A stretch of 64,000 nucleotides of DNA, taken from positions 62,001 to 126,000 of the forward strand of contig JAGNKY010000005.1 in NCBI GenBank assembly GCA_017999895.1, in the 5' to 3' direction. This DNA is from Bacteroidales bacterium. GTDB lineage: Bacteria > Bacteroidota > Bacteroidia > Bacteroidales > VadinHA17. Positions 13,729 through 39,398 of the stretch are shown piece after piece. The notes beneath the pieces are model-generated. The model saw only the letters and a program-made list of their open reading frames with translations, searched no databases and was not told the origin of the DNA. The first letter of the stretch is position 1; each line of letters opens with the position of its first letter. The position numbers were made by a program, and so were the translations under genes.

Positions 13729-15003
13729 ATGAAAAAAGGTAAATTGTGTATTCCAATAATTGTCTTGTTAGTCAGCATTGCGAATGTCTGTGCACAGGAA
13801 TGGCAGCAGTACCTTGGGCCGAAAAGAAACAGTACTTCTCCTGAAAAAGGTATATTACGTTCATGGCCTGAGAAAGGTCCGGATGTACTATGGACGGTTG
13901 AAGTAGGCATAGGTTTTGGCGGGCCTGTCATCAAGGACGGTAAAGTTTATTTACTCGACAGAGATGGCGATGTCAGCGATATAATGCGGTGTTTCGATTT
14001 TTCCAGCGGCAAAGAATTATGGAGGTTTAGTTATGATGCTCCAGGCTCTGTCCGGTATCCTGGTTCGCGAAGTGTGCCGGCTGTGGACGGCAATTATGTT
14101 TATTCTTGCGGTCATAACGGCGACTTATATTGTTTCGACATCAACACACACAAGCCTGTATGGAATAAGAATGTTTGGACTGATTTCGGTGGTGGACAGA
14201 TTCCGACCTGGGCAATTACACAGTGCCCCCTTATTTACGGTGATTTACTGATTATCGCATCACAGGCTCCTCAGGCGGGTGTTGTTGCCTATAATAAGTT
14301 AACCGGAAATATGATATGGAAAACTCCTTCTATTGGTGCTGCCGGTTATGTGAGTCCTGCAGTAGTAAAAATTAGCGGTGAAGACCATGTTGTTATGATT
14401 ACCGCAGCAGCTGGTCGCGGACAAAGCGCCAGTGGAGGCAAAGTTGTTGGAATTAACCCCCTTACCGGTAAAATTCTTTGGGAATATACGAATTGGCAAT
14501 GTATTATTCCTGTACCCAGTGCAGTTGATGCCGGAGAAGGCAGAGTTTTAATTACAGGCGGATATGAAGCAGGTGCTGCATTGATAAAAGTAACGAAGAA
14601 AGCCGACGGTACTTACGGTGTTGCGGAACTTTATAAAAATATAGATTTTGGCGACCATACAAAACCGCCAATATTACATAACGGCTACTTCTATGCTCAG
14701 TATTCGACTAACGAAAGAAGAGACGGCCTTGCATGTATGAATATGGATGGCAAGGTGATGTGGAAGACAATGCGTTCACCCTTATTCGATAAAGGAAGTA
14801 TGATCCTTGTTGATGGCGTTATATTGGCTACCGATGGCAATCGCACTCTATATGTAATAGAACCTGATCCATCAGGCTTTAAACCTCTTGCCTCAGCGGC
14901 AATTCTTAATGCCGGACAGAACTGGGGGCCAATTGCACTTTCTAACGGCAAGCTACTTATAAGAGATCAAAGACAGTTAATGTGTGTCAGGGTTGCCAGA
15001 TGA
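13729..15003 (+). CDS. Exported PQQ-type beta-propeller protein (copy 1)
   Basis: A 424-residue protein with signal peptide (MKKGKLCIPIIVLLVSIANVCAQ) followed by a beta-propeller of outer-membrane-assembly/PQQ-like blades. The blade motifs (VYLLDRDGD, GKELWRF, VYSCGHNGDLYCFD, GKILWEY, GKVMWKT) recur at about 50-residue spacing. It lacks the residues of a true quinoprotein dehydrogenase, so a scaffolding or ligand-binding role in the periplasm is more likely than catalysis. It is a tandem duplicate of the next gene; most of the length is near-identical. The copies differ most at the N-terminus and around 195-220. Confidence 0.85.
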   Translation: MKKGKLCIPIIVLLVSIANVCAQEWQQYLGPKRNSTSPEKGILRSWPEKGPDVLWTVEVGIGFGGPVIKDGKVYLLDRDGDVSDIMRCFDFSSGKELWRFSYDAPGSVRYPGSRSVPAVDGNYVYSCGHNGDLYCFDINTHKPVWNKNVWTDFGGGQIPTWAITQCPLIYGDLLIIASQAPQAGVVAYNKLTGNMIWKTPSIGAAGYVSPAVVKISGEDHVVMITAAAGRGQSASGGKVVGINPLTGKILWEYTNWQCIIPVPSAVDAGEGRVLITGGYEAGAALIKVTKKADGTYGVAELYKNIDFGDHTKPPILHNGYFYAQYSTNERRDGLACMNMDGKVMWKTMRSPLFDKGSMILVDGVILATDGNRTLYVIEPDPSGFKPLASAAILNAGQNWGPIALSNGKLLIRDQRQLMCVRVAR

Positions 15004-15028
15004 TTCATTATTAAGTATCATAAGAAAA

Positions 15029-16330
15029 ATGAAAAATAAAGTATTTATTCCGGTCATAGTCTTTTTATTTTGCGCTTTAAACAGCTGCACGCAAGGTAAG
15101 AAAGACATAAAGAACTGGCCTCAGTATCTCGGGCCTTACAGGAACAGTACATCTGACCAGAAAGGTATATTGCGTTCGTGGCCTGAGAAAGGGCCGGAAG
15201 TTCTCTGGACAGTCGATGTTGGCATTGGTTTTGGCGGACCTGTCATCAAAGACGGCAAAGTTTATTTGCTCGACAGGGATGGCGATATTGCTGATGTAAT
15301 GCGATGCTTCGATTTTTCCAGCGGCAAGGAATTATGGGATTACAGTTATGATGCTCCAGGACGTGTTCAGTTTCCCGGTTCACGAAGCGTTCCTGCTGTG
15401 GATGGTAATTATGTTTATTCGTGCGGTCACAACGGTGATTTGTATTGTTTCGATCTCAACACTCACAAACCCGTATGGCATAAGAATATCTGGACTGATT
15501 TTGGTGGCGACAAACTTCCGATATGGGCTATAACCCAGTGTCCTCTGGTTTACGGCGACTTACTTATTGTGTTATCCCAGGCACCCGATGCCGGTGCTGT
15601 TGCCTATAATAAGCTTACAGGTGATGTTGTATGGAAAACACGAAATCTTGTAAATGAATCGTATGCCAGTCCTTCAGTTGTAAAAATTGACGGTAAAGAC
15701 CATATTGTAGTTGTTATTTCATCTACTAACCCTATTGGGCATAAGGAGTTGCCATATACTCCGGGTAATATAGTTGGAATAGAACCGCTTACAGGGAAAA
15801 TTTTATGGGAGTATAATGACTGGGAGTGTCATATTTCAGTGCCGAGCGCTGTCGATGCCGGTAATAATAGAGTGCTGGTTGCAGGCGGATATGAGCATGG
15901 AGTGGTTATGCTAAAGGTTGAAAAAAAGCCGGACGGAAACTATGGTGTTACGGAACTTTTCAAACATAACGATTTTGGTGATCATACAAAACCACCAATA
16001 TTATATAACGGCTATTTCTATGCTCAGTTCTCGACCAACAGTAAACGTGACGGACTGGTATGTATGAATATGGATGGCAAGGTTATGTGGAAGACAATGC
16101 GTTCGCCTTTATTTGATAAAGGAAGTATGATCCTTGTTGATGGTGTCATACTGGCTACAGACGGCAATCGCTCTTTATATGTGATAGAGCCCGATCCAAC
16201 TGCCTTTAAGCCAATAGCTTCTGCCGCTATTCTTGAAGCCGGTCAAAACTGGGCTCCAATAGCACTTGCAGACGGAAAGCTTCTTATAAGAGATCAAAAA
16301 CGGCTAATGTGTATTAGAGTTGCCAGATGA
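15029..16330 (+). CDS. PQQ-type beta-propeller lipoprotein (copy 2)
   Basis: The start is placed at the ATG at 15029 because it opens a lipoprotein signal (MKNKVFIPVIVFLFCALNSC, lipidated Cys about residue 20); the frame upstream to 14984 overlaps the previous gene and has no other support. The 433-residue product has the same propeller blades as copy 1 and is membrane-anchored rather than soluble. The duplication extends past the stop: both genes end in GTTGCCAGATGATTCATT. Upstream of the next gene no obvious terminator is visible. Function unknown. Confidence 0.85.
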   Translation: MKNKVFIPVIVFLFCALNSCTQGKKDIKNWPQYLGPYRNSTSDQKGILRSWPEKGPEVLWTVDVGIGFGGPVIKDGKVYLLDRDGDIADVMRCFDFSSGKELWDYSYDAPGRVQFPGSRSVPAVDGNYVYSCGHNGDLYCFDLNTHKPVWHKNIWTDFGGDKLPIWAITQCPLVYGDLLIVLSQAPDAGAVAYNKLTGDVVWKTRNLVNESYASPSVVKIDGKDHIVVVISSTNPIGHKELPYTPGNIVGIEPLTGKILWEYNDWECHISVPSAVDAGNNRVLVAGGYEHGVVMLKVEKKPDGNYGVTELFKHNDFGDHTKPPILYNGYFYAQFSTNSKRDGLVCMNMDGKVMWKTMRSPLFDKGSMILVDGVILATDGNRSLYVIEPDPTAFKPIASAAILEAGQNWAPIALADGKLLIRDQKRLMCIRVAR

Positions 16331-16499: not shown

Positions 16500-17591
16500 T
16501 TGAAAACAAATAATCTAATAAACAGCAACAAACAGGGGGGAGCAACGGTAAAAGAAGATACCTTGAAAAAATATTCTACAACAAAGCTATTGATTATCAG
16601 TCTAATCAGTGGAGTTGTCGTTATTTATCCGAACATTTCTCTTTTCTTGATGGAACGCAGCTTTTTAGGAGAGTCAAAACATACTGCACATTTATTGTTT
16701 TTCATTTTCAGGTATCTTTACTTCTCTGCGTTAATATTTGTATTGTTAATATACAACTTTCGTAAAATCAAGACGCCAGAAGTCAAAAAACGGTTTATCA
16801 ATTCATTTTTGATAACTTTAACTTTTTATTTTTTATATATAGGTTTTTCACTTACCTTGAATCCGAAAAATGAATGGTTCTCAGGTGTATTACTTTTTCA
16901 ATTTTTTGTTACTTATGTTTTATCTACGCTTATAGGATATCTTTCCTTTCTACACTCGGAACAGAGAAGAAAAGAGCAGGAGATCGAGCAGTTGAAAATT
17001 GAGAGTCTGCAAAGCCGATATGATGCGCTGACTAATCAGATTAATCCTCATTTATTCTTCAATTCTCTTAACGGCCTTAGTTCATTGATTCGTAAAAAGA
17101 ATGAAGAAGTTACTCTTGAATATGTAAATAAGCTTTCCGATGTTTTTCGTTATATTCTGAAAAGTGATAAAAAAGTACTGGTAACGCTGGAAGAGGAACT
17201 GGAATTTGTACAGGCATTCCGCTATATGCTGGAAGTGCGTTTTGCAAATAAGCTTATTTTCAATATTGAAGTTGACAAAAGCAAAATGGATTTTAAAATC
17301 CCGGTGCTATCACTCCTCCCGTTAATTGACAACATAGTCGTACATAATACTATTGACAGTGAGCATAAAATGGAGGTAAAAATATGGCTTAACGATAAGG
17401 ATGAACTTGTTATATCCAATCCTATCTATCCGAAATTATCACCGCCTGAGACAAACGGTACCGGTCTCAAAAACCTTGAGCATCGTTTTTTGTTATTATT
17501 GAATAAACAGATAAGAGTTGAAAATGATGGCAAAGTATTCAATGTTTACCTGCCTTTGAAAAAAGATGATGATGAGAATACTGATTGTTGA
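16500..17591 (+). CDS. LytS-like sensor histidine kinase (His_kinase family)
   Basis: A 363-residue membrane kinase. Four transmembrane helices span ~29-50, ~64-86, ~98-120 and ~128-150, followed by a short coiled coil, the His_kinase motif with phospho-accepting His184 (NQINPHLFFNSL), and an ATPase domain ending NGTGLKNLEHRF. No separate sensor domain is present, so the signal is probably sensed in the membrane. The start is uncertain: no in-frame ATG precedes the helices, so the TTG at 16500 is used (another TTG is at 16563). A 15-residue ORF with ATG (16466-16513) overlaps this start in another frame and could couple translation. It overlaps the regulator gene. Confidence 0.85.
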   Translation: MKTNNLINSNKQGGATVKEDTLKKYSTTKLLIISLISGVVVIYPNISLFLMERSFLGESKHTAHLLFFIFRYLYFSALIFVLLIYNFRKIKTPEVKKRFINSFLITLTFYFLYIGFSLTLNPKNEWFSGVLLFQFFVTYVLSTLIGYLSFLHSEQRRKEQEIEQLKIESLQSRYDALTNQINPHLFFNSLNGLSSLIRKKNEEVTLEYVNKLSDVFRYILKSDKKVLVTLEEELEFVQAFRYMLEVRFANKLIFNIEVDKSKMDFKIPVLSLLPLIDNIVVHNTIDSEHKMEVKIWLNDKDELVISNPIYPKLSPPETNGTGLKNLEHRFLLLLNKQIRVENDGKVFNVYLPLKKDDDENTDC

Positions 17592-18342
17592 AGACGAGAC
17601 TGCGGCTTATGAAAACCTGGTACAGATTCTTGCAGGGATAGATCCTTCAATTGAGATTGCAGGATGTACCGAAAGCGTAAAGCAAACTATCCGATGGCTT
17701 AACACCTGTGAACCACCTGATTTGATTTTAATGGATATTCACTTATCCGACGGATCGGCATTTTCAATATTTGATAAAGTAAATGTCGAAACGCCTATAA
17801 TATTTACAACTGCTTATGATGAATATGCCCTTGAGGCATTCAGGGTTAACAGTATTGATTATCTTCTTAAGCCTATTAAAGAAGAAGATTTGAAGCGAGC
17901 TCTGGATAAGTTCAAAAAACTGACACATAATGAAATTTTAAAATATCTGTCACAGCTTACTCATCTTTCCCCACTTACAAAGTATAGCGACAAAATATTA
18001 GTGCCTGTCAGGGATAAGTTGCTGCCTGTAAATCTTAATGAAGTATCATTCTTTTATTCGACCAATAAGAACACACGGATTTTTCTGAAAAACGGGCAGG
18101 TCTATCCTTATTCGAAGTCGTTGGAGCAAATAGAGGAATCATTGAATCCGTCAGATTTTATACGTGCCAACAAACAATTTATTATTGCCCGGAGCAGTGT
18201 AAAGAATATTACTATCTGGTTCGACAACCGGTTGCTGATTACACCCGATATTGAACCTCCTGAGCGTATATATATCAGTAAGAACAGAGCTGCAGAGTTT
18301 AAAGCATGGATGGTTAATGATATTAAGAAAAGTACGTTTTAA
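17572..18342 (+). CDS. LytR-type response regulator (REC + LytTR)
   Basis: A REC domain (~1-120; phosphorylated Asp in LILMDIHL) is followed by a LytTR DNA-binding domain (~140-235, IRANKQFIIARSSV). Three consecutive ATG codons (17566, 17569, 17572) overlap the kinase's last codons; the third is preferred because family members begin MRILIVEDE. The kinase-regulator overlap shows one operon and a cognate pair. Targets may include the terpenoid operon that starts 270 bases downstream or the ABC/propeller genes upstream; this is inference from position. Confidence 0.9.
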   Translation: MRILIVEDETAAYENLVQILAGIDPSIEIAGCTESVKQTIRWLNTCEPPDLILMDIHLSDGSAFSIFDKVNVETPIIFTTAYDEYALEAFRVNSIDYLLKPIKEEDLKRALDKFKKLTHNEILKYLSQLTHLSPLTKYSDKILVPVRDKLLPVNLNEVSFFYSTNKNTRIFLKNGQVYPYSKSLEQIEESLNPSDFIRANKQFIIARSSVKNITIWFDNRLLITPDIEPPERIYISKNRAAEFKAWMVNDIKKSTF

Positions 18343-18609: not shown

Positions 18610-19419
18610 ATGAGTGAACAGAGGGAACTGTTTAAATCAAAACATATACTTTTCTGCAATTGCAAAGGCGAAAGTATTGATTCTTATCTGCTTCAGACAA
18701 TCGGTAAGTATCTGGAAAAACTGAATGTTGACGTTACAATTTTAACCGATCTGTGCGGTGTGGCAGCATGTAATAAGAATCTGCTTACCAACTTGTTTAT
18801 TAACAATACGGAATATCTGGTTATCGGCTGTTACAGGCGTACTATGAAACTGTTATTCGAACAGATTAATAATGATTTTTTCGCGCAGACAGATTTTGAA
18901 CATATCAATTTGCTTCAGGCAACATCTAAAGAAGAAGTTATTGACACGATAAACCGGTTTTGTGGTAGTTATAAAGGCAGTTCCGTTCATCGTGAGATCA
19001 GGGAAGATTCAGGGTGGCCGTCGTGGTACCCGATAATAGATTACACCCGCTGCACTGGATGCGGGCAATGCGCCGATTTTTGTCTTTTCGGAGTATATGA
19101 AAAGAACAGTAACAGTGTAAAGGTAGTAAATCCAAAGGGATGCAAGAACAACTGCCCTGCCTGCGCACGTATTTGTCCTGCTACAGCCATTATTTTCCCA
19201 AAATATACTCAGGGAGGTGCTATAGGAGGCTCCGATGAAATTGACGAACAAATTGAGCAGCAACATCAGGCTAAAGATATAAAGAGTTTACTTGGAGATG
19301 ATCTTTACACTGCTCTGGAGAAGCGGAAAGCTCAACGGCAATCAATTATCAGGGAGGAAGCCATGAAAAGAGCTATTCAGGAAAAAAACATTGCTATCCA
19401 AAAAGATACAAAAAAGTAA
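18610..19419 (+). CDS. Two-[4Fe-4S] ferredoxin-domain protein of the terpenoid operon
   Basis: A 269-residue cytoplasmic iron-sulfur protein. An N-terminal ~115-residue domain begins HILFCNCKG and has cysteines at 16, 18, 49 and 54, reminiscent of redox domains of HdrA-like proteins, but no firm family is recognised. Residues 148-158 hold CTGCGQCADFC and 178-189 CKNNCPACARIC, giving two cluster sites; the second has CxxxCxxCxxxC spacing. The tail (200-269) is Glu/Gln/Lys-rich and helical. It is first in a five-gene operon, 8 bases before the radical SAM gene, so the likely role is electron delivery to that enzyme. The partner is inferred from position. Confidence 0.8.
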   Translation: MSEQRELFKSKHILFCNCKGESIDSYLLQTIGKYLEKLNVDVTILTDLCGVAACNKNLLTNLFINNTEYLVIGCYRRTMKLLFEQINNDFFAQTDFEHINLLQATSKEEVIDTINRFCGSYKGSSVHREIREDSGWPSWYPIIDYTRCTGCGQCADFCLFGVYEKNSNSVKVVNPKGCKNNCPACARICPATAIIFPKYTQGGAIGGSDEIDEQIEQQHQAKDIKSLLGDDLYTALEKRKAQRQSIIREEAMKRAIQEKNIAIQKDTKK

Positions 19420-19427
19420 GATAAATA

Positions 19428-20606
19428 ATGTCGGTTCTTAGTAATTTCATAAAGGTAGATAGAAAATGTCGCAGGAAGTTTCTGATTAACATGGGATGGA
19501 AAGGATTTCTTGGCATCAGGAAATTCCGGAAAAGAAGCCGAAGCGGTGGACATTTTCCGGCATTCCAGTTCATTTCCATCACAAACGACTGTAATCTTAG
19601 ATGCCAGGGCTGCTGGGTTTCATCTAACGGCAAAAAGGAATACATGTCGCTCGAAAAGATAAATAACATCATAGAAGCCGGCAAAAAACAAGGCTCGTAT
19701 TTTTTTGGCATACTTGGAGGAGAGCCGCTTATGCATAAGGACCTGATAAAAATTTTCAAAAATCATAGTGATTGTTATTTCCAGTTATTTACCAACGGCA
19801 TCCTTTTTAACAAATCTATCGCATCTCAACTACGCGAGGCGGGCAATGTTACTCCTTTAATAAGTCTCGAGGGAGACGAAACTATAGCCGATATACGACG
19901 AGGAGGCAGCAATGTGTACTTGAGGACGTTGAATGCTATTTCCACAGCCACCAGTGAAGGTTTGATAACCGGAGTGGCTATCAGTGTCTGTAAATCAAAT
20001 ATTGAAATGGCTCTTTCGGAGGAGTTTATACGGATGCTTCATTCCATGGGTGTGCTTTATGTATGGTATTATATTTATCGACCGGCAGGCAATAATCCCA
20101 ATTATGAGCTGGCTCTTGACAGTGATGACATATTAAGTCTTCGAAAGTTCCTCGTTGAAGGCAGGACGAAATTGCCTGTCGTACTGATTGATTCATACTG
20201 GGATGCCATGGGCGAGCCTTTTTGCCCTGCTGCTGAGGGCCTGAGCCATCATATTAATTCTGCAGGTTATATTGAACCTTGTCCTGTAGTGCAGTTTGCC
20301 TGTGAAAATATTTCTGACGGTCGACTGGAAAACATATATGAAAACTCAGAGTTTCTGAAGGGATTCAAAAATGAGATTCAGCATAAAACAAACGGGTGTA
20401 TTTTCATGGAAGACCCGAGGTGGTTAAAGGAACTGGCATCGAAATATTATGCTTTAAATACATCGAACCGTGCGGGTTATATAACCGACCTTGAGCATGC
20501 ACCTGAGGTGACAAGTCATGGATCATGCCCTGTGATTCCGGAAAAGAACCTGATATACAGGCTGGCAAAAAAAACAGCTTTTTTTGGTATGGGTGCTTAT
20601 GGTTGA
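19428..20606 (+). CDS. Radical SAM protein with SPASM-like C-terminus
   Basis: A 392-residue enzyme. The cluster motif CNLRCQGC is at 55-62 (CxxxCxxC), followed by the GGEP SAM-binding motif (LGGEPLMHK), LFTNG and SLEGD strands of the partial TIM barrel. The C-terminal third has extra cysteines (FCPAAEG, EPCPVVQFAC, NGCIFMED, GSCPVIPEK) in the place where SPASM domains bind auxiliary clusters. It should cleave SAM to a 5'-deoxyadenosyl radical. It is not HpnH (no B-series hopanoid signature CNLACAGC), and no precursor peptide gene is seen. The position next to polyprenyl synthase and cyclase genes suggests modification of an isoprenoid, but the substrate is inferred. Confidence 0.85.
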   Translation: MSVLSNFIKVDRKCRRKFLINMGWKGFLGIRKFRKRSRSGGHFPAFQFISITNDCNLRCQGCWVSSNGKKEYMSLEKINNIIEAGKKQGSYFFGILGGEPLMHKDLIKIFKNHSDCYFQLFTNGILFNKSIASQLREAGNVTPLISLEGDETIADIRRGGSNVYLRTLNAISTATSEGLITGVAISVCKSNIEMALSEEFIRMLHSMGVLYVWYYIYRPAGNNPNYELALDSDDILSLRKFLVEGRTKLPVVLIDSYWDAMGEPFCPAAEGLSHHINSAGYIEPCPVVQFACENISDGRLENIYENSEFLKGFKNEIQHKTNGCIFMEDPRWLKELASKYYALNTSNRAGYITDLEHAPEVTSHGSCPVIPEKNLIYRLAKKTAFFGMGAYG

Positions 20607-20622
20607 ATGAAATTAGTGAATA

Positions 20623-22209
20623 ATGCTGGCAGCTATAAATAATTTATCATTAATTGTGCCTTTTGACCGGCTGGTACGCAGTAACATCCGGAAAAGTGTG
20701 AAACATTTTTTTTCATCCCATAAAAGTGAACCACCTGTTTCTCTGGATACTCTCGATGAACTTGCAGGTTCTTTAATAGAAAAGTACGGGTGGGATAAAA
20801 GTTACAAGGCTTTTGTTATGGTTTGCTGCGGTAATGAGATATGGCGTCCTGTTGTTGCTTCAGTTTCATATAATCGCCGGATGCTTTTGCTTCCACAGTG
20901 TTTGAGAAATAGTCTTTTATGCAAAGCACATTATGACGAGCTTGGCCTTTTATGCAGCGATTGTGGAAACTGCAATATATCAGAATTTCTCAGGGAAGCT
21001 GAAAACCTTGGATACATGACAATTGTAGCGGAAGGAACTACGATAGCTTCGCAATTGACTGAAGGCGGAAATGTGGATGCAATTATTGGGGTGAGCTGCC
21101 TCGAAGTTTTACAGAAAATGTTCAGCACTGTAAATAAGTTCGGCATACCTGCAATTGGAATCCCACTACTTACATGCGGATGTAAGGATACTACAGCGGA
21201 TGAAGAATGGATAATGGAAGAGATTCATAATTTTGATCAACATACTGAATTCAAGTTACTGAATCTCAATAATGTAAGTAATAAAGTTACCTCAATATTT
21301 AAAGAGGAGAAGCTTATTAAATTATTGAACCTGTCGGGTTCATCCACCGACAGGCTTGTTCTGGAGACGATGCTCGCAGGCGGCAAAAGAATAAGACCGT
21401 TACTGACGGTTTTAGCGTATGAAGCATTCAGCAAGCAGCCTGATGAGGAAACTCTGGAGCATCTGGCCCTTTCTGTCGAATGTTTTCATAAAGCTTCATT
21501 AATCCACGACGATATTGAGGACAATGATTTATCGAGATATGGAAAAGAGACTGTGCACATCCGTTATGGCATACCCGTTGCAATAAACCTTGGCGATCTC
21601 TTGATAGGTGAGGGCTACAGACTTATTGCTTGTTGTAACCTCGAACCGCATGTTATCAGAGAGTGTCTGAAAGTTGTATCGCTTGGTCATAAAGCTCTTT
21701 CTACAGGGCAGGGAACGGAGCTCATGAGCCGTATTAATAATGAAACACTTTCATTAAAAGATATTTTAACTGTTTTTGAGAACAAGACCGCCGCTGCTTT
21801 CAGAGTATCTCTTCTTCTTGGAGCTATTGCAGGAGGCGCAGACGAACAGACACTCGGAGTTCTGGATCAGTTCAGCTATCTGATAGGACTTGCATATCAG
21901 ATAAAAGATGACCTTGAGGATTTTACAGTCGAAAACCGCATTATTTCTTTCGAAAATCCATCTATATGGATTTCTTTGCTGGCTGAAAAAGTTAACGGCG
22001 ATATAAAGCAAATGAGGAAGGCATTGCTTCAGCACGATGCGTCAGAGTTGCAAAATCTTATGGAAAAGTACATGATACCAGATTCTTTAACAAACCTTCT
22101 CAAAGAATACCTGCATAGAATTGATTTATGCCTGAGCAACCTTCATAACATAGGTCTAAAACTGGCTTTGCATGAGATTGTGGGAAAAACCTTCAATGAA
22201 TATATCTAA
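20623..22209 (+). CDS. DUF116-polyprenyl diphosphate synthase fusion
   Basis: A 528-residue two-part protein. Residues ~40-205 look like DUF116: LLPQCLRNSLLC, then CSDCGNC (Cys 111, 114, 117) and IIGVSCLEVL, with five or more cysteines able to hold a metal cluster. Residues ~235-528 are an all-helical trans-prenyl diphosphate synthase: GGKRIRP (253-259), first Asp-rich motif DDIED (296-300), second motif DDLED (429-433), so both Mg-binding sites are complete. It should condense IPP with an allylic diphosphate; product length cannot be read. The fusion joins a metal-binding module to chain elongation. It overlaps the next gene by 14 bases. Confidence 0.85.
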   Translation: MLAAINNLSLIVPFDRLVRSNIRKSVKHFFSSHKSEPPVSLDTLDELAGSLIEKYGWDKSYKAFVMVCCGNEIWRPVVASVSYNRRMLLLPQCLRNSLLCKAHYDELGLLCSDCGNCNISEFLREAENLGYMTIVAEGTTIASQLTEGGNVDAIIGVSCLEVLQKMFSTVNKFGIPAIGIPLLTCGCKDTTADEEWIMEEIHNFDQHTEFKLLNLNNVSNKVTSIFKEEKLIKLLNLSGSSTDRLVLETMLAGGKRIRPLLTVLAYEAFSKQPDEETLEHLALSVECFHKASLIHDDIEDNDLSRYGKETVHIRYGIPVAINLGDLLIGEGYRLIACCNLEPHVIRECLKVVSLGHKALSTGQGTELMSRINNETLSLKDILTVFENKTAAAFRVSLLLGAIAGGADEQTLGVLDQFSYLIGLAYQIKDDLEDFTVENRIISFENPSIWISLLAEKVNGDIKQMRKALLQHDASELQNLMEKYMIPDSLTNLLKEYLHRIDLCLSNLHNIGLKLALHEIVGKTFNEYI

Positions 22210-23050
22210 GCTACTTAATTTGCCACAAATGCAGACTTTCAAAGAAAGAAGTCTGGAAAGAACATTGAAGAAATCTTTGAACATAATGGAACCTAATGCT
22301 GTGGAAAGCCTGAAAAGGTATATAAGAAGTTCCCAGTCTCCATCGGGTGGATTTATTGACAAAGCAGGTAAGGCCGATATTTATTATACATTATTTGGTT
22401 ATTTTCTCGCTGAGGCTCTTGAATTGAAAGAAATTTTATCTTCAGTTGCAGGATTTATTGAAGTAGAAATCGAACAATCCATTCCTTCAGGAGTAAATTT
22501 ATATTGTGAAGCTATTTTAGCTGCCAAATCAGGTAAAAAAAAGTTATTAAGTAAATCTTTAAGAAAAGAGATTAAGGCTGCACAGGATATAAAATTGAGT
22601 AAACTGCCTGTTTATGAAATGTTTATGAACCTTTTAACTTGCTATTATCTGAATGATTACAAAGGACTTTATCGGTTTAAAAAACAATTACCGGAGTTGG
22701 ACGAAGACGTTTCTCTTACATGTCCGGTAATTTCGGCTATGCTGGTTATCCGACAATGCTTTAATTTACCGGTAGATAGGTTACAAAAAAATGTGATGTC
22801 ATATTATAATAATCATGGTGGTTTTTTTGCCGGTCGTGGAACAGCATTGCCGGATTTATTGTCGACGGCTGTGGCATTATATGCGTTGCGGTTTTCAGGC
22901 GCCGATATAAACATGATTAAGCCTGATTGTTTGAGTTTTATTGATTCAATGTATTGCAAAGGAGGTTTTTATGGGAATGAGCTTGACATGGAACCTGACA
23001 TTGAATATACATTTTATGGATTACTTGCCCTTGGAGCATTAGCTGAATGA
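22196..23050 (+). CDS. Terpene cyclase/protein-prenyltransferase-fold protein without DXDD
   Basis: The start is set at the ATG at 22196, inside the end of the previous gene; the upstream extension to 22172 is unlikely. The 284-residue product has repeated helical units with GGF cores (PSGGFIDKAGKADIYYT, NHGGFFAGRGTALPDLLST, CKGGFYGNELDMEPDIEYT), the pattern of one alpha-alpha barrel as in prenyltransferase beta subunits or one domain of squalene cyclases. It has no DXDD acid motif, so it may be a partner or binding subunit of the cyclase encoded one base downstream. Family membership is moderate; function is unknown. Confidence 0.7.
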   Translation: MNISKLLNLPQMQTFKERSLERTLKKSLNIMEPNAVESLKRYIRSSQSPSGGFIDKAGKADIYYTLFGYFLAEALELKEILSSVAGFIEVEIEQSIPSGVNLYCEAILAAKSGKKKLLSKSLRKEIKAAQDIKLSKLPVYEMFMNLLTCYYLNDYKGLYRFKKQLPELDEDVSLTCPVISAMLVIRQCFNLPVDRLQKNVMSYYNNHGGFFAGRGTALPDLLSTAVALYALRFSGADINMIKPDCLSFIDSMYCKGGFYGNELDMEPDIEYTFYGLLALGALAE

Positions 23051-23051
23051 G

Positions 23052-24848
23052 ATGGACAACCACGAAGCAATATTCAATAGATATATTTCTTTACGCGATC
23101 GCCTTCTAGCAGAAAGGAATAAGGAAGGATTCTGGAGTGGCAGACTGGCTACAAGTGCTTTAGCGACGGCTGTGGCGATAGTTAGCCTTAAAGTTGCAGG
23201 CAAAGAAATTGACCGGGAGCGTATTGCTTTGGGATTTAACTGGTTATGCAGGAATATCAATACTGACGGAGGATATGGCGATACGCTGGGTTCGGTAAGC
23301 AACGTAAGTACAACACTACTTTGCTATGGCGCGATACGCTATTGTCAGACAGGTGATAATGGATTACCGGTAATTCAGCGTATTGAAGCCTGGCTTGGCG
23401 AAAAGGGGATAACTTTCAATAAGGAGACTATTACCGGTTCGATTTTGAATTTCTATGGGAAAGATTATACATTTTCGATACCAATTCTTTCGATGCTCAT
23501 TATATGTGGTATAATTCCGCCATCATCAGCACAGAAGATTCCAAAACTACCATTTGAACTTGCACTTTTACCGCCCTCTTTTTATCGTTTCTTCAATCTG
23601 CATGTTGTCAGTTATGCGCTGCCCGCACTGATAGCAGTGGGTATTTATCAGTTTACATTACGCAAAAGGGGTGGTTTGCATAATATATCCTTCAAGAAGT
23701 TGTTTGTTAAATCGGCTATTAATAAGTTAAACACTCTTGTTCCTCCGAGCGGCGGTTTTCTGGAAGCCTCACCTCTTACGGGATTTGTTTCCATGTGTCT
23801 TATTGCCGCTGGCGTGACTGAAAATGAAACTATAAGTAAAGGAATTGAGTTTTTGCGAAACCAGCAACGTGAAGATGGCGGATGGCCTATCGACACTGAT
23901 CTGTCAACATGGGTTACAACCCTTTCAATTAAGGCACTTGGGAGTGATATTTACGAGGTATTAAATGAAGATGAGATCAATATTTTAAGAAATCATTTAC
24001 TCAGGCTTCAATTCAGGGAAAAGCATCCATTTAACGGAGCTAAACCCGGCGGCTGGGGGTGGACAAGCTATTCGGGTTCAGTACCTGATGCGGATGACAC
24101 ATCAGGCGCAATACTGGCTCTGCTTGAAATCTATTCTGGAAGCAAAGAAGAGATAACAGCTTTACAAAACGGATGCAGATGGCTGATAGATATCCAGAAC
24201 AAAGACGGCGGGTTTCCAACCTTTTGTAAAGGATTCGGTAAGCTACCGTTCGACAGTAGCTGCGCCGATATTACCGGACATTCAATTTTAGCATTGTTAA
24301 AAACGGCTGAACAGCTTAATAGCAAGTTGTCGCCTGAATTATTGAAGAAAATAGACAAAAGTGTGTTAAGGGCAAAAGAGTATCTGGTAGAAAATCAAAG
24401 GGCAGACGGTTCATGGGTGCCATTATGGTTCGGTAATCAGTTGACTGACGACAAGACGAATCCTGTTTACGGTACTGCAAAAGTATGTACTTATCTTAGT
24501 GATTGTATAGCTTTCAAGCGACCTGAACCCGATTTTTTGCATGAGATAGCACAACTTATTACAAAAGCACAAGGTTTTCTGATTTCGCAACAGAATGGCG
24601 ATGGAAGCTGGGGTGGGAGTAAAGGCATTCCAGGGTCAATAGAAGAAACATCACTTGCCTTAAGCGCTTTGACGCCCGGTAATGAAGAAATATGTACAAA
24701 GGGACTTCAATGGCTCGAAAGATGGGAAAAGCTTACTCCTGTACCTATAGGCCTCTATTTTGCAATGTTATGGTACGACGAATATCTTTACCCGTTAATA
24801 TTTTATACAGAGGCAATAAGAAGATATTTGACTTTGCAGTCAGTTTAA
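23052..24848 (+). CDS. Class II terpene cyclase, squalene-hopene-cyclase-like
   Basis: A 598-residue two-barrel cyclase, a little short of bacterial squalene-hopene cyclases (~630). The catalytic acid motif is DADD (346-349) in the context PGGWGWTSYSGSVPDADDTS, matching the DXDDT(A/S) motif of class II enzymes. QW-like repeats occur at QQREDGGW, QNKDGGF, NQRADGSW and QNGDGSW. The stretch VPLWFGNQ...NPVYGTAKV corresponds to the conserved WFGRWG...YGT segment. It should protonate a terminal alkene or epoxide of a polyprene. No squalene-synthase genes are in the window, so the substrate may be a polyprenyl diphosphate or its product. Last gene of the operon. Confidence 0.85.
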   Translation: MDNHEAIFNRYISLRDRLLAERNKEGFWSGRLATSALATAVAIVSLKVAGKEIDRERIALGFNWLCRNINTDGGYGDTLGSVSNVSTTLLCYGAIRYCQTGDNGLPVIQRIEAWLGEKGITFNKETITGSILNFYGKDYTFSIPILSMLIICGIIPPSSAQKIPKLPFELALLPPSFYRFFNLHVVSYALPALIAVGIYQFTLRKRGGLHNISFKKLFVKSAINKLNTLVPPSGGFLEASPLTGFVSMCLIAAGVTENETISKGIEFLRNQQREDGGWPIDTDLSTWVTTLSIKALGSDIYEVLNEDEINILRNHLLRLQFREKHPFNGAKPGGWGWTSYSGSVPDADDTSGAILALLEIYSGSKEEITALQNGCRWLIDIQNKDGGFPTFCKGFGKLPFDSSCADITGHSILALLKTAEQLNSKLSPELLKKIDKSVLRAKEYLVENQRADGSWVPLWFGNQLTDDKTNPVYGTAKVCTYLSDCIAFKRPEPDFLHEIAQLITKAQGFLISQQNGDGSWGGSKGIPGSIEETSLALSALTPGNEEICTKGLQWLERWEKLTPVPIGLYFAMLWYDEYLYPLIFYTEAIRRYLTLQSV

Positions 24849-26267: not shown

Positions 26268-27641
26268 TCAATAGGCTATTTCCAGTATTTTACTGAAGCT
26301 TTTTTCCGATATAATTATATCCGCAACAAGGTTAAGGTAATTATTTCCTGAGCAAAATGATACTCCTACTCCGCTGTGGCGTACAAGACATATATCATTT
26401 TCACTGTCGCCTACTGAAATAATATTTTTTATATCAATTGAATATTCTTTTGCAAGATGTAAAAGAACATTCGATTTGCAAATATCGTGATGGCAAATAC
26501 TCTCCTTAGTTCTGAAAAAATAAGAAGGCACTTTTACCTCTCCTGTTGCAACACTTTTGGAAAATTCAAGTTCGTTTGCAATACTGAAATCCATATCGAG
26601 CTTATTCTTTATATGATTTGTAACTACATCATAGCTGTCGCTGATTATTCCGCAGATATAACCACGGCTTTTAAGTTGGCTTATTACAGTTGCAGCATCG
26701 CTAACAATATTTATACTATCGGCGACTTTAAGTATTTCATCAATTGATTTTCCTTTCATCAATTTTGCAATAAGTTTTGTTCTTGTATAGGGATTGCCGT
26801 TTTCTATCACAATGTTGATGAGTTCGTCAGTGAAATTGAATTCACTTGCCGCTGTTGTTATAAAACTTCCTTCAAGAATAGTATTGTCCATATCAAAAAT
26901 TATCATTTTTTTCAGACCTTTAAGGCTTTCCCTTATTGCATATTCCATTTGTGTACGAATTACACTTATATTTTCAAGTGTTTCGAGGTTATTCAATTCA
27001 ATTCCTTTTGCTCTCTTTAAAATTGCTCTTGAAACTTCTCTGGCCATTTTTCCAAGCTGCTCCCATGTTTGCATTCGATTTTCTATATATCCGATATTTA
27101 CTTCGACTATTCTTGCACCGAGTGCATACATATCGAGTAGCAGACCTATATCCACGCCGTAATCATTTTCAAAATCAATTTTTTTGAGAAAGCTTTTTTT
27201 TGCGGCAATCATGCCGCTTAAAGGTTGTGAGAAATGAGCTACCTGGGGGAAAAGAAAGCTTAACAGGGGTTTTGCAACCAGTTCGGTTACTCTTCCGGCC
27301 TGACGTGAGAAGCATGATTTGACAAAATCTGCTTCATCTCTGATAATTGGTCCGGCAAGGATGTCAATGGTATTTTCAGGGTAAGTCTGGATATCTGCAT
27401 CGAGATAAACTATTATTTCATTTTGTGCCAGAAGCATACCCTCTCTCATTGACGTACCTTTGCCGAGTTTTGTGCTGGTATAAACTCTGGTTTTACCAGC
27501 CTTTGCTTCACGGATAGTTTCATCAAGCGATTTGTCGTCTATAACAAGAATCTCACTTACGAGTGATGATTTTCCCGCCAGTTCGATAACCTGCCGGATT
27601 GTCTTCTCTTCATTAAGAGCAGGAATTATTACTGAAATCAT
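26268..27641 (-). CDS. GpgS-like glycosyltransferase fused to HAD-IB phosphatase
   Basis: A 457-residue fusion. Residues 1-~215 are a GT-A glycosyltransferase with DAD at 81-83 and the block GRVTELVAKPLLSFLFP...GYGVDIGLL, which resembles glucosyl-3-phosphoglycerate synthases (GT81). Residues ~245-457 are a HAD-IB phosphatase: motif I DMDNT (250-254), a helical cap, and motif III GDSENDICLVR. Together the halves could make glucosyl-phosphoglycerate and remove its phosphate, giving the compatible solute glucosylglycerate in one polypeptide. Substrates are inferred from homology to GpgS. An antiporter gene lies downstream, consistent with an osmotic-stress context, but co-transcription is not shown. 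Confidence 0.8.
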   Translation of the reverse strand: MISVIIPALNEEKTIRQVIELAGKSSLVSEILVIDDKSLDETIREAKAGKTRVYTSTKLGKGTSMREGMLLAQNEIIVYLDADIQTYPENTIDILAGPIIRDEADFVKSCFSRQAGRVTELVAKPLLSFLFPQVAHFSQPLSGMIAAKKSFLKKIDFENDYGVDIGLLLDMYALGARIVEVNIGYIENRMQTWEQLGKMAREVSRAILKRAKGIELNNLETLENISVIRTQMEYAIRESLKGLKKMIIFDMDNTILEGSFITTAASEFNFTDELINIVIENGNPYTRTKLIAKLMKGKSIDEILKVADSINIVSDAATVISQLKSRGYICGIISDSYDVVTNHIKNKLDMDFSIANELEFSKSVATGEVKVPSYFFRTKESICHHDICKSNVLLHLAKEYSIDIKNIISVGDSENDICLVRHSGVGVSFCSGNNYLNLVADIIISEKSFSKILEIAY

Positions 27642-36413: not shown

Positions 36414-39398
36414 TTAAGGATGAGTTTGCTTTTGTTTTGCAGTAGATGTGTCGTACAAAAGTGTAGAAGCAACAAAAACGGATGAATATGTTCCGATGAA
36501 TATACCTATCATAAGAGCGAATATGAAGCCTCTGATTACGGCTCCCCCGAAAATGAATATAGCTATAACAGTTAGAAGAGTTGTGAGTGAAGTATTTATT
36601 GTTCGGCTGAGTGTAGAATTTATTGCCATGTTTATAACGTCCTTGAAAGGTCTTTTACGATAAATAGGCAGGTATTCTCTTATCCGGTCGAAGACGATAA
36701 CAGTATCATTAACAGAATAGCCTATTACGGTAAGAATTGCGGCAATAAATGACTGGTCTATTTCCATACTGAACGGCATGATACCCCATAGTAAGGAGTA
36801 AAGTCCGATGACGAACAATGAGTTGTGGAATAGTGAAGCAACTGCTCCGAATCCGTATCGCCAGTTTCGGAATCGCAGAAAGATATAAAGGAACATGATA
36901 ACAAGAGCTATTCCCACCGCATACACTGCTCTTATTCTAATGTCGCTTGCCACAGTGGGACCGATAGTTTCCGAACTCTCTCTGTATTTTGCAAGCCATT
37001 CATCTTTTGAAAGCTCTCCCCCGGTAATATTTTTAAGTCCTTCATAAAGTTTAGTCTCTACTTCATCTTCGGCGCCGACTTCATTTATTTTATATTTAGT
37101 TGTTATTTTTACTTGGTTTACACTACCGAAAGTAACAACCCGAGGAAGTTCGCCAAAAACTTCTTTTAGGCTGTTTGCCACGTCAGCAGTTTTAATGGGT
37201 TCATCAAATCTGACAACAAAAGTTCTTCCTCCGGTAAAATCAATTCCAAGGCTTAATCCTCTTACAAAAAGAGAACCTATGCCAAGGATTGTAATTGCAA
37301 TTGAGAATGCATAAAAATATTTTCTCATTCCGATAAAGTCGATTTTCGTATTCTTGAGAATGTTTGCTGTTGCCGGAATGGAGAAAGAAATGCGGTCAGT
37401 ACGTTTAAGTTTTGCTTCAAAAATAAGCCTTGAAATAAAGATTGAAGTGAATAATGAAGTAAGGATACCTATTACGAGTGTTGTTGCGAATCCTCTTATA
37501 GGACCGGTGCCGAAAACATAAAGTACAATTCCTGTAAGTATTGTTGTAACGTTAGAGTCGATTATTGCAGAGTATGCACGTCGGTAGCCTTCGGCTATTG
37601 CCAATTTAAGTCCTTTACCAGCGCGAAGTTCCTCCCTTATGCGCTCATAGATGAGCACATTAGCGTCAATTGCCATGCCCATAGTAAGAACGATACCGGC
37701 AATACCAGAAAGGGTAAGCACTGCATTTAGTGAAGCAAGCACGCCGAAAAGAAGCAATACGTTTACAAGTAGGGCAATGTCGGCTGCAAGTCCGGCATCT
37801 TTGCTGTAATAAATAAACATATATACCAGCACGAGTAAAAAGGCTATTGCGAATGAAGTAAAACCTGCATTGATAGCTTCTTTACCAAGAGTAGGGCCGA
37901 CAACTGTGTCGGAAACAATTCTTGCAGGGGCAGGAAGTTTACCCGACATAAGTATATTTGCAAGGTCCTGTGCCTCTTCAAGAGTAAAATCGCCGGTAAT
38001 TTCCGAATTGCCTCCGGTGATTTCTGTAACAACACGTGGATATGACCTTACATAACCATCGAGTACGATTGCAATACATCGGCCGATATTTTCACGTGTA
38101 AGTCTGGCCCACGTCTTTGCACCTTCAGCATTCATTGACATGGTTACCTGAATATCGGAAGTAACAACACCCGATGAAGGCCGGGCTGATGTGATAACAC
38201 TTCCGTCGAGCGGAGCGCGTCCATCACGGGTTGTTATTTTCAGAGCGTGAAGTTCATAAAATGTCTTTGATTCGTCATATTTATAAGGTTCCTGGCTCCA
38301 GCAGAACTTTATATCTCTTGGGAATAATGCCCGTATCTGCGGCATTTTAAGATATTCGTTCACTTTTGCCGTATCTCTGAAGCTTGCAAGCCCAATGACA
38401 CATCCGGGCAAAGGTTGGCCCTGCTGGTCTACATGAGGACGTAGAACTGAGAAAAGGGGATTTTGTAAAGCAAATTGTTCAAGATTTTTTGCTTCAGCAG
38501 ATGTGGTAGAAGTATCTTTTTTTATAAGTTCAAGAAGTGATTCTTCTCCTTTTGTAGTGTCTTTTTGGGCGGTGAGAGTTTCCGAAGTTCTTTTAAGCGA
38601 ATCGGCATTTTTCTGCATATTAGCCTGAATCTCACGTAAAAGTTCATTAGCCTGGACCAGATAATTTATTATCTCGCTGTTTTCGTAAGTTTCCCAGAAT
38701 TCGAGGCTGGCTGTACCGGAAAGAAGCTCACGGACACGCTGAGGGTTGTTTACTCCAGGCAGTTCGATAAGAATTCGGCCTTTTGTTGATAATCTTGTAA
38801 TATTCGGCTGTGACACGCCGAACCTGTCTATTCTAGTTCGGAGTATGTTAAATGCATTGTTTATTGCATTATCAATTTCTTTTTCCAGTACTCTTATAAC
38901 TTCATCGTTGGTCGAGTTGAAGTTAATTTTGTCTTTAAGTTCAACTGTGCCGAAGATAGATGCGAGGCGAGCCTGAGGGTCAAGTTCATTGAATGCCTGG
39001 GCGAATAGATTCAGGAAATCGCCATTAGTCTGTAATTGACGCTGTCGGGCAATAGCAAGTGCTTCATTAAATGTCTTGTCAGGATTATAGTTTGATAATG
39101 CTCTGAGTATATCCTCGACAGAAACCTCGAGTATTACATTCATGCCACCTTTAAGATCAAGGCCCATGTTCAATTCTTTTTTCAGGCAATCCTTGAATGA
39201 ATATCCAAGAAAACTCCACTGATCTTTTGAAAGAGTTGACATTGAATCGATGTAGGCAATTTCCTTCTCAAGATTTCCGTTGGCATATTTTTTGGCATCT
39301 CTTTTTACCTTATAAGTTGCAGCAGTAAATGAAAGCTGGTAGATTGATACCAGTATTAGAGTTACTGCAAGGAAAATTATGGCACCTTTGTTCTGCAT
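36414..39398 (-). CDS. secDF: Fused protein-export protein SecDF
   Basis: 994 residues joining SecD and SecF, the normal form in Bacteroidota. SecD half: helix at ~5-25, periplasmic domain with DLKGGMNVILEV, GVSQPNI and IELPGV motifs, helices ending in MAIDANVLIYERIREEL (the proton-relay Asp region). SecF half starts near 690 with GIDFTGGRTF and ends with VNDTVIVFDRIRE and STLSRTINTS. It uses the proton gradient to pull exported proteins. An excellent promoter lies 50 bases upstream. Confidence 0.97.
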   Translation of the reverse strand: MQNKGAIIFLAVTLILVSIYQLSFTAATYKVKRDAKKYANGNLEKEIAYIDSMSTLSKDQWSFLGYSFKDCLKKELNMGLDLKGGMNVILEVSVEDILRALSNYNPDKTFNEALAIARQRQLQTNGDFLNLFAQAFNELDPQARLASIFGTVELKDKINFNSTNDEVIRVLEKEIDNAINNAFNILRTRIDRFGVSQPNITRLSTKGRILIELPGVNNPQRVRELLSGTASLEFWETYENSEIINYLVQANELLREIQANMQKNADSLKRTSETLTAQKDTTKGEESLLELIKKDTSTTSAEAKNLEQFALQNPLFSVLRPHVDQQGQPLPGCVIGLASFRDTAKVNEYLKMPQIRALFPRDIKFCWSQEPYKYDESKTFYELHALKITTRDGRAPLDGSVITSARPSSGVVTSDIQVTMSMNAEGAKTWARLTRENIGRCIAIVLDGYVRSYPRVVTEITGGNSEITGDFTLEEAQDLANILMSGKLPAPARIVSDTVVGPTLGKEAINAGFTSFAIAFLLVLVYMFIYYSKDAGLAADIALLVNVLLLFGVLASLNAVLTLSGIAGIVLTMGMAIDANVLIYERIREELRAGKGLKLAIAEGYRRAYSAIIDSNVTTILTGIVLYVFGTGPIRGFATTLVIGILTSLFTSIFISRLIFEAKLKRTDRISFSIPATANILKNTKIDFIGMRKYFYAFSIAITILGIGSLFVRGLSLGIDFTGGRTFVVRFDEPIKTADVANSLKEVFGELPRVVTFGSVNQVKITTKYKINEVGAEDEVETKLYEGLKNITGGELSKDEWLAKYRESSETIGPTVASDIRIRAVYAVGIALVIMFLYIFLRFRNWRYGFGAVASLFHNSLFVIGLYSLLWGIMPFSMEIDQSFIAAILTVIGYSVNDTVIVFDRIREYLPIYRKRPFKDVINMAINSTLSRTINTSLTTLLTVIAIFIFGGAVIRGFIFALMIGIFIGTYSSVFVASTLLYDTSTAKQKQTHP

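Follow-up and report, generated by a model that had tools for sequence, protein, structure and literature searches.

The window, a 64,000-nucleotide stretch of DNA from a Bacteroidales genome, carries on its plus strand a group of five genes that encode, in order, a 4Fe-4S protein, a radical SAM enzyme, a fusion of a DUF116 domain with a prenyl synthase (IDS) domain, a single α-toroid protein and a class II (DxDD) cyclase. The fusion gene (20623..22209, +) starts with ATG and encodes a protein of 528 aa. A sequence-only reading had described it as DUF116 joined to a polyprenyl diphosphate synthase, and Pfam profile searches bear this out for both parts: DUF116 (PF01976; residues 52-200, 20776..21222, +) scored 110 bits against a cut-off of 25 (E 9e-32), and polyprenyl_synt (PF00348; residues 247-437, 21361..21933, +) scored 144 bits against a cut-off of 27 (E 5e-42). 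The latter match stops at position 194 of the 251 in the profile, a first hint of an unusual C-terminal part, and the NCBIfam matches to many prenyl synthase families were all below threshold. The AF2 model of the full protein is good (pLDDT 89, pTM 0.88) and has a trans-IDS fold in its C-terminal part that continues to about residue 523 and for which Foldseek returned, among others, 1wy0 as the best match (E 2e-12, TM 0.81 by target).

Conservation of the fusion

When GTDB genomes were scanned, 317 encoded relatives were returned, and the best 80 of the 317 were used here; the carriers among them belong to the Bacteroidota, the Verrucomicrobiota, the Planctomycetota and smaller phyla. Because both domains lie in a single ORF in 78 of these 80 relatives, the merging of two genes by an assembly error, which the sequence-only reading had raised against itself, is ruled out. 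The relatives examined have no stop or start between the two domains, and no split DUF116/IDS gene pair was found among them. One exception to the single ORF (L035) has an IDS part that runs on in a second ORF in a frameshift-like manner.

Shorter DUF116 frames checked in genomes of the Verrucomicrobiota group had no adjoining IDS domain, and one in the window's own order (L124) is cut by the contig end. With frame length as a proxy for fusion, DUF116 occurred in 37 of 195 sampled genomes of a verrucomicrobial centre's phylum, with about 31 matches in frames of at least 500 aa, and in the window's order (247 genomes) about 9 of 25 DUF116 matches lay in frames of at least 480 aa. In the window's phylum, where 11 of 396 genomes had DUF116, the frames longer than 500 aa were the window's own and L126, and L126, when checked, had neither a fusion-type DUF116 nor an IDS domain. 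The fusion of a MAG named Akkermansiaceae (L023) groups inside Bacteroidota sequences, as expected of transfer or of a wrongly binned contig.

A conserved five-gene operon

Neighbours were counted in testable loci, that is, those with enough sequence for the gene in question. The first gene of the group encodes a 4Fe-4S dicluster protein of 269 aa (18610..19419, +; Pfam Fer4 families) and lies upstream in 48 of 54 testable loci. The radical SAM gene (19428..20606, +; PF04055, E 1e-18), whose 392-aa product has SPASM-like C-terminal cysteines, is found directly upstream of the fusion in 52 of 62, so that the suggested link to this adjacent gene holds well beyond the window. Downstream, the single α-toroid (prenyltransferase/SHC-repeat) protein (22196..23050, +; PF00432, E 2e-7) is present in 47 of 59 testable loci; its longest ORF begins at 22172, ATG 22196 is the likelier start, and the gene overlaps the end of the fusion gene.

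The last gene (23052..24848, +; 598 aa) encodes a class II terpene-cyclase-like protein of the squalene-hopene cyclase family, with SHC-type α-toroid domains above cut-off (PF13243, E 8e-31; PF13249, E 6e-22) and a DxDD acid motif in the form PDADDT. The VPDxDDT motif is kept at a level of at least 95% in 46 cyclase sequences, and the gene is present in 32 of 44 testable loci. This cyclase-like gene, which lies two genes downstream of the fusion and is not mentioned in the sequence-only finding, is the neighbour that characterises the pathway best. Cys-rich proteins are encoded by three of the five genes, and pairwise identities of the operon partners track those of the fusion (r 0.91-0.95), a correlation to which shared ancestry contributes. 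No described gene cluster or operon of such make-up was found in the open literature, to which the search was confined.

Further genes accompany the operon in other phyla. In verrucomicrobial and planctomycetal loci, genes for three more proteins occur: one is GcvH-like, one is a CobW-type GTPase, and one belongs to aminotransferase class V and resembles cysteine desulfurases. The CobW-type GTPase is a frequent sixth operon gene in different phyla (L051:6179-7279, L018:14260-15543, L004:14437-15531), placed upstream of the 4Fe-4S gene in some loci and behind the cyclase in others, including directly behind it in eight Bacteroidota loci; one protein query did not find it in the window's genome. 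The GcvH-like gene precedes the operon in loci of verrucomicrobial, planctomycetal and related origin (L052:5512-6054, L058:5990-6445), its product in L052 contains EGFKA, a possible lipoylation motif, and a class V aminotransferase/cysteine-desulfurase-like gene lies near it in several loci. Upstream of the operon in the window is a LytTR-type two-component pair (16500-18342, +), which may travel with the operon, since close homologues occur downstream of the cyclase elsewhere: those of both members in L003 (68-72% identity), and that of the kinase also in L006 (66%).

Several other genes in the window were observed in passing. Two overlapping and closely similar PQQ_2 β-propeller proteins are encoded at 13729-16330 (+), and about 19 loci, most of them in Bacteroidota, have related propellers close to the fusion operon, often arranged in tandem. 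One ORF at 26268-27641 (-) combines a family 2 glycosyltransferase (residues 3-111) with a HAD-type phosphatase (residues 245-421), both above the Pfam cut-off, and a 994-aa ORF at 36414-39398 (-) appears by eye to be SecD and SecF joined in one gene.

The DUF116 domain

The cysteines 93, 100, 111, 114 and 117 noticed in the sequence-only reading are real, and an alignment extends the set: all five, together with Cys159 and Cys187, are invariant in 79 homologues. They form a Cys-rich stretch, C93-C117 (20899..20973, +), with a CxxCxxC motif (C111, C114, C117), followed by C159 and C187. DUF116 has been described as a domain with at least six conserved cysteines including CxxCxxC and, from an HHpred prediction, a probably flavodoxin-like fold (Makarova, Galperin and Koonin 2015, PMC5898192), and the seven found here agree with this count. 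The AF2 model of the domain shows an α/β core at fair confidence (pLDDT 85.7). Compared with the PDB, no chain was related to DUF116 by sequence, and by fold the model gave just weak Rossmann, B12-binding or receiver-type matches, none at E<=0.001; such matches would be in line with the published prediction. Metal binding by the seven conserved cysteines is plausible, and they probably hold an Fe-S cluster. Eight loci with stand-alone DUF116 genes in the Bacteroidota were read for neighbours and had no consistent context.

Residues kept and lost in the synthase domain

The IDS domains of 79 fusions were aligned with canonical synthases of the window's order. As the sequence-only reading had stated, both DDxxD motifs are present and conserved: the first, DDIED (residues 296-300; 21508..21522, +), is invariant in the 79 sequences, and in the second, DDLED (residues 429-433; 21907..21921, +), D429 and D430 are invariant while position 433 is Asp in 70 and Glu in 9. 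The Mg2+- and allylic-diphosphate-binding residues D296, D297, D300, R305, K388, T389, Q426, D429, D430 and D433 (as Asp or Glu) are thus kept in 79 of 79.

The description of a full synthase is not borne out, however, in view of the truncated Pfam match and of residues of the IPP half-site that are missing across the family. The Arg-Arg pair found in 30 of 30 canonical synthases is R305-Y306 here (21535..21540, +), the second Arg having become Tyr in 77 fusions and Asn in 2. The GKxxGxD loop that normally follows the second Asp-rich motif is deleted in 78 of 79 fusions, a count that rests on the alignment because the motif pattern was too narrow and recovered 11 of 30 canonical synthases. The C-terminal Arg of ordinary synthases is replaced by Asp or Glu or is missing, and the Lys of GGKR (K255) is kept in 51 of 79. 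Other IPP contacts are retained, namely G254, R258, H289, T389 and Q426. The fusions therefore do not have a complete IPP site, consisting of the GGKR Lys, the Arg-Arg pair, the C-terminal Arg and the GKxxGxD loop, and the alignment shows that this half-site is partly lost family-wide and that the allylic site is intact. The assignment of residues to the IPP or the allylic side follows established FPP synthase structures. Just before the first Asp-rich motif, C287 and K290 occur in every fusion but in none of the aligned canonical synthases.

Isoprenoid supply in the genome

The window's genome (98.97% complete) encodes two canonical prenyl synthases and one SHC-like gene. It gave no squalene/phytoene synthase (SQS_PSY) match, and thus no HpnC or HpnD, so the cyclase is unlikely to use home-made squalene and a hopanoid pathway was rejected for this genome. 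The other genomes with the fusion are mixed: SQS/PSY genes are present in 21 of 28, where they may belong to hopanoid or carotenoid synthesis.

Discussion

The partial loss of the IPP pocket, together with a conserved gene group that includes a cyclase, indicates that the fusion probably helps to build a cyclic lipid. We tentatively propose, with a probability of about 0.48, that it works independently of IPP as the class I enzyme of a dedicated cyclic-isoprenoid pathway that also uses the class II cyclase. How such a pathway would run, in its reaction type, substrate, cluster, electron flow and product, we infer as follows. The IDS domain would bind a preformed prenyl diphosphate through Mg2+ and the two DDxxD motifs and ionise it without adding IPP, and the resulting cation would be cyclised or otherwise re-routed. 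The chain would be supplied by the two ordinary synthases encoded elsewhere in the genome, and its other end would be protonated and cyclised by the DxDD protein downstream. The DUF116 domain with its seven cysteines most likely carries an Fe-S cluster and would exchange electrons with the 4Fe-4S protein of the operon; modification of the skeleton or the product is the probable task of the radical SAM enzyme.

The proposal of an IPP-independent step is favoured by what the family has kept and what it has lost: every Mg2+ and allylic residue remains, but the second Arg of the pair, the loop after the second Asp-rich motif and the C-terminal Arg do not. This pattern recalls the substituted IPP-binding motifs by which IDS-derived terpene synthases are marked in insects (PMC10962984). 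The proposal is also consistent with the class II cyclase and its conserved VPDxDDT in the same operon, with a genome that has two canonical synthases for chains and neither squalene nor phytoene synthase, with the parallel divergence of the operon genes and with the high cysteine content of three of the five. Several observations count against it, however. Five IPP contacts remain, as does K255 in a majority of the fusions, which makes the loss much less complete than in the insect terpene synthases, where 3-4 of 15 are kept; the deleted GK loop also helps to bind the allylic diphosphate; the fold is nearest to elongating synthases; SQS/PSY genes occur in most of the other fusion genomes; and the cyclase is not nearby in 12 of the 44 testable loci.

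The same remaining contacts would suit a chain-elongating prenyl diphosphate synthase that makes a dedicated chain for the operon's cyclase and is switched by DUF116 through redox state or metal. Conservation of both DDxxD motifs, R305, K388 and Q426 would be expected of such an enzyme, GGPP and polyprenyl synthases match it best in both fold and sequence, and the loss of the IPP site is only partial. We nevertheless consider this unlikely, since the second Arg of the pair, the loop and the C-terminal Arg are lost across the family and the genome already has two canonical synthases. On this evidence, a class I step without IPP and with Fe-S partners is more probable than a regulated elongase. 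The suggestion of regulated prenyl synthesis in the sequence-only reading accordingly survives in part: the joining of the two domains, the Cys-rich nature of DUF116 and the radical SAM link stand, but the family-wide partial loss of the IPP-binding half makes redox or metal control of elongation less credible.

An altered IPP side could also mean that the domain is a trans-IDS-like prenyltransferase whose acceptor is not IPP but, for example, an amino acid, a peptide or an aromatic compound, as in Ord1, ComQ, PalQ and the P domain of ChrPC. Structures of Ord1, a Trp farnesyltransferase, are among the top fold matches, and enzymes of this type put the IPP side to use for a different acceptor (PMC13290415). 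By sequence, however, ordinary synthases outscore Ord1 (96 bits for 1wy0 against 72 for 9v4g), and the conserved operon contains neither a recognisable precursor peptide nor an amino-acid gene; we regard such an acceptor as rather doubtful.

The cysteines could possibly take part in the reaction itself. In a redox-coupled terpenoid synthase, electrons from an Fe-S centre of DUF116 would reach the IDS pocket, pass there to an allylic cation or a diphosphate and bring about reductive cleavage or coupling, a chemistry as in IspH and IspG but on a long prenyl chain. A single cluster may be held by the seven cysteines and have its open site close to the invariant E137-G138. We think this improbable. 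A protein devoted mainly to electron transfer, with the IDS fold as a lipid- or diphosphate-binding anchor of a redox complex and not as a terpenoid enzyme, would agree with the role predicted for DUF116 from genomic context (PMC5898192) and with the 4Fe-4S and radical SAM partners, but seems very improbable, because the Mg2+/diphosphate ligands and the cyclase's DxDD acid are strictly conserved, more than simple binding would lead one to expect.

The five-gene group is kept across at least the Bacteroidota, the Verrucomicrobiota and the Planctomycetota, and no assigned product was found for it, which suggests that common environmental bacteria make a cyclic isoprenoid lipid not yet described. 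DUF116, long unassigned, gains a concrete biochemical setting for its putative cluster and role. If the enzyme were redox-coupled, electron transfer would be added to a fold known for cation chemistry, and the IDS fold would then catalyse a class of reaction new to it.

The fusion itself is not new. One paper that mentions DUF116 turned up in the open literature. A DUF116-polyprenyl synthetase fusion in some bacteria was named in one sentence by PMC5898192 in support of a role in electron transfer, and its example, Psta_0175 of Pirellula staleyi, has the same two Pfam domains in one protein and planctomycetal relatives in the present set of loci. The operon, the class II cyclase partner and the altered IPP site are not described in that report, and we found no description of the five-gene operon in the open literature.

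Among characterised enzymes, the insect terpene synthases LlTPS and PsTPS1 share with the fusion an IDS fold and retained DDxxD motifs, and have IPP-binding motifs that are substituted (PMC10962984), as they are in part in the fusion. The fusion differs from them in that its loss of IPP motifs is partial, in its attached Cys-rich domain and in its bacterial origin. Ord1, ComQ, PalQ and ChrPC likewise have an IDS fold, but no acceptor-peptide or amino-acid pathway was recognised near the fusion gene. The hopanoid pathway (HpnCDE, SHC, HpnH) resembles the operon in combining an SHC-type cyclase with a radical SAM enzyme; the absence of squalene synthase genes sets the window's genome apart, and the operon's radical SAM protein scored 48.6 bits against the HpnH profile, far below the cut-off of 225. 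The closest known logic is that of the C35 sesquarterpene pathway of Bacillus subtilis (HepS/HepT, YtpB, SqhC), in which heptaprenyl diphosphate is the substrate of YtpB (class I) and SqhC (SHC-type) (PMC7839719). There, as proposed here, a class I enzyme and an SHC-type class II cyclase would act on one long prenyl diphosphate without squalene; YtpB, however, is not an IDS/DUF116 fusion, and the radical SAM and Fe-S partner genes set the present operon apart from the Bacillus pathway.
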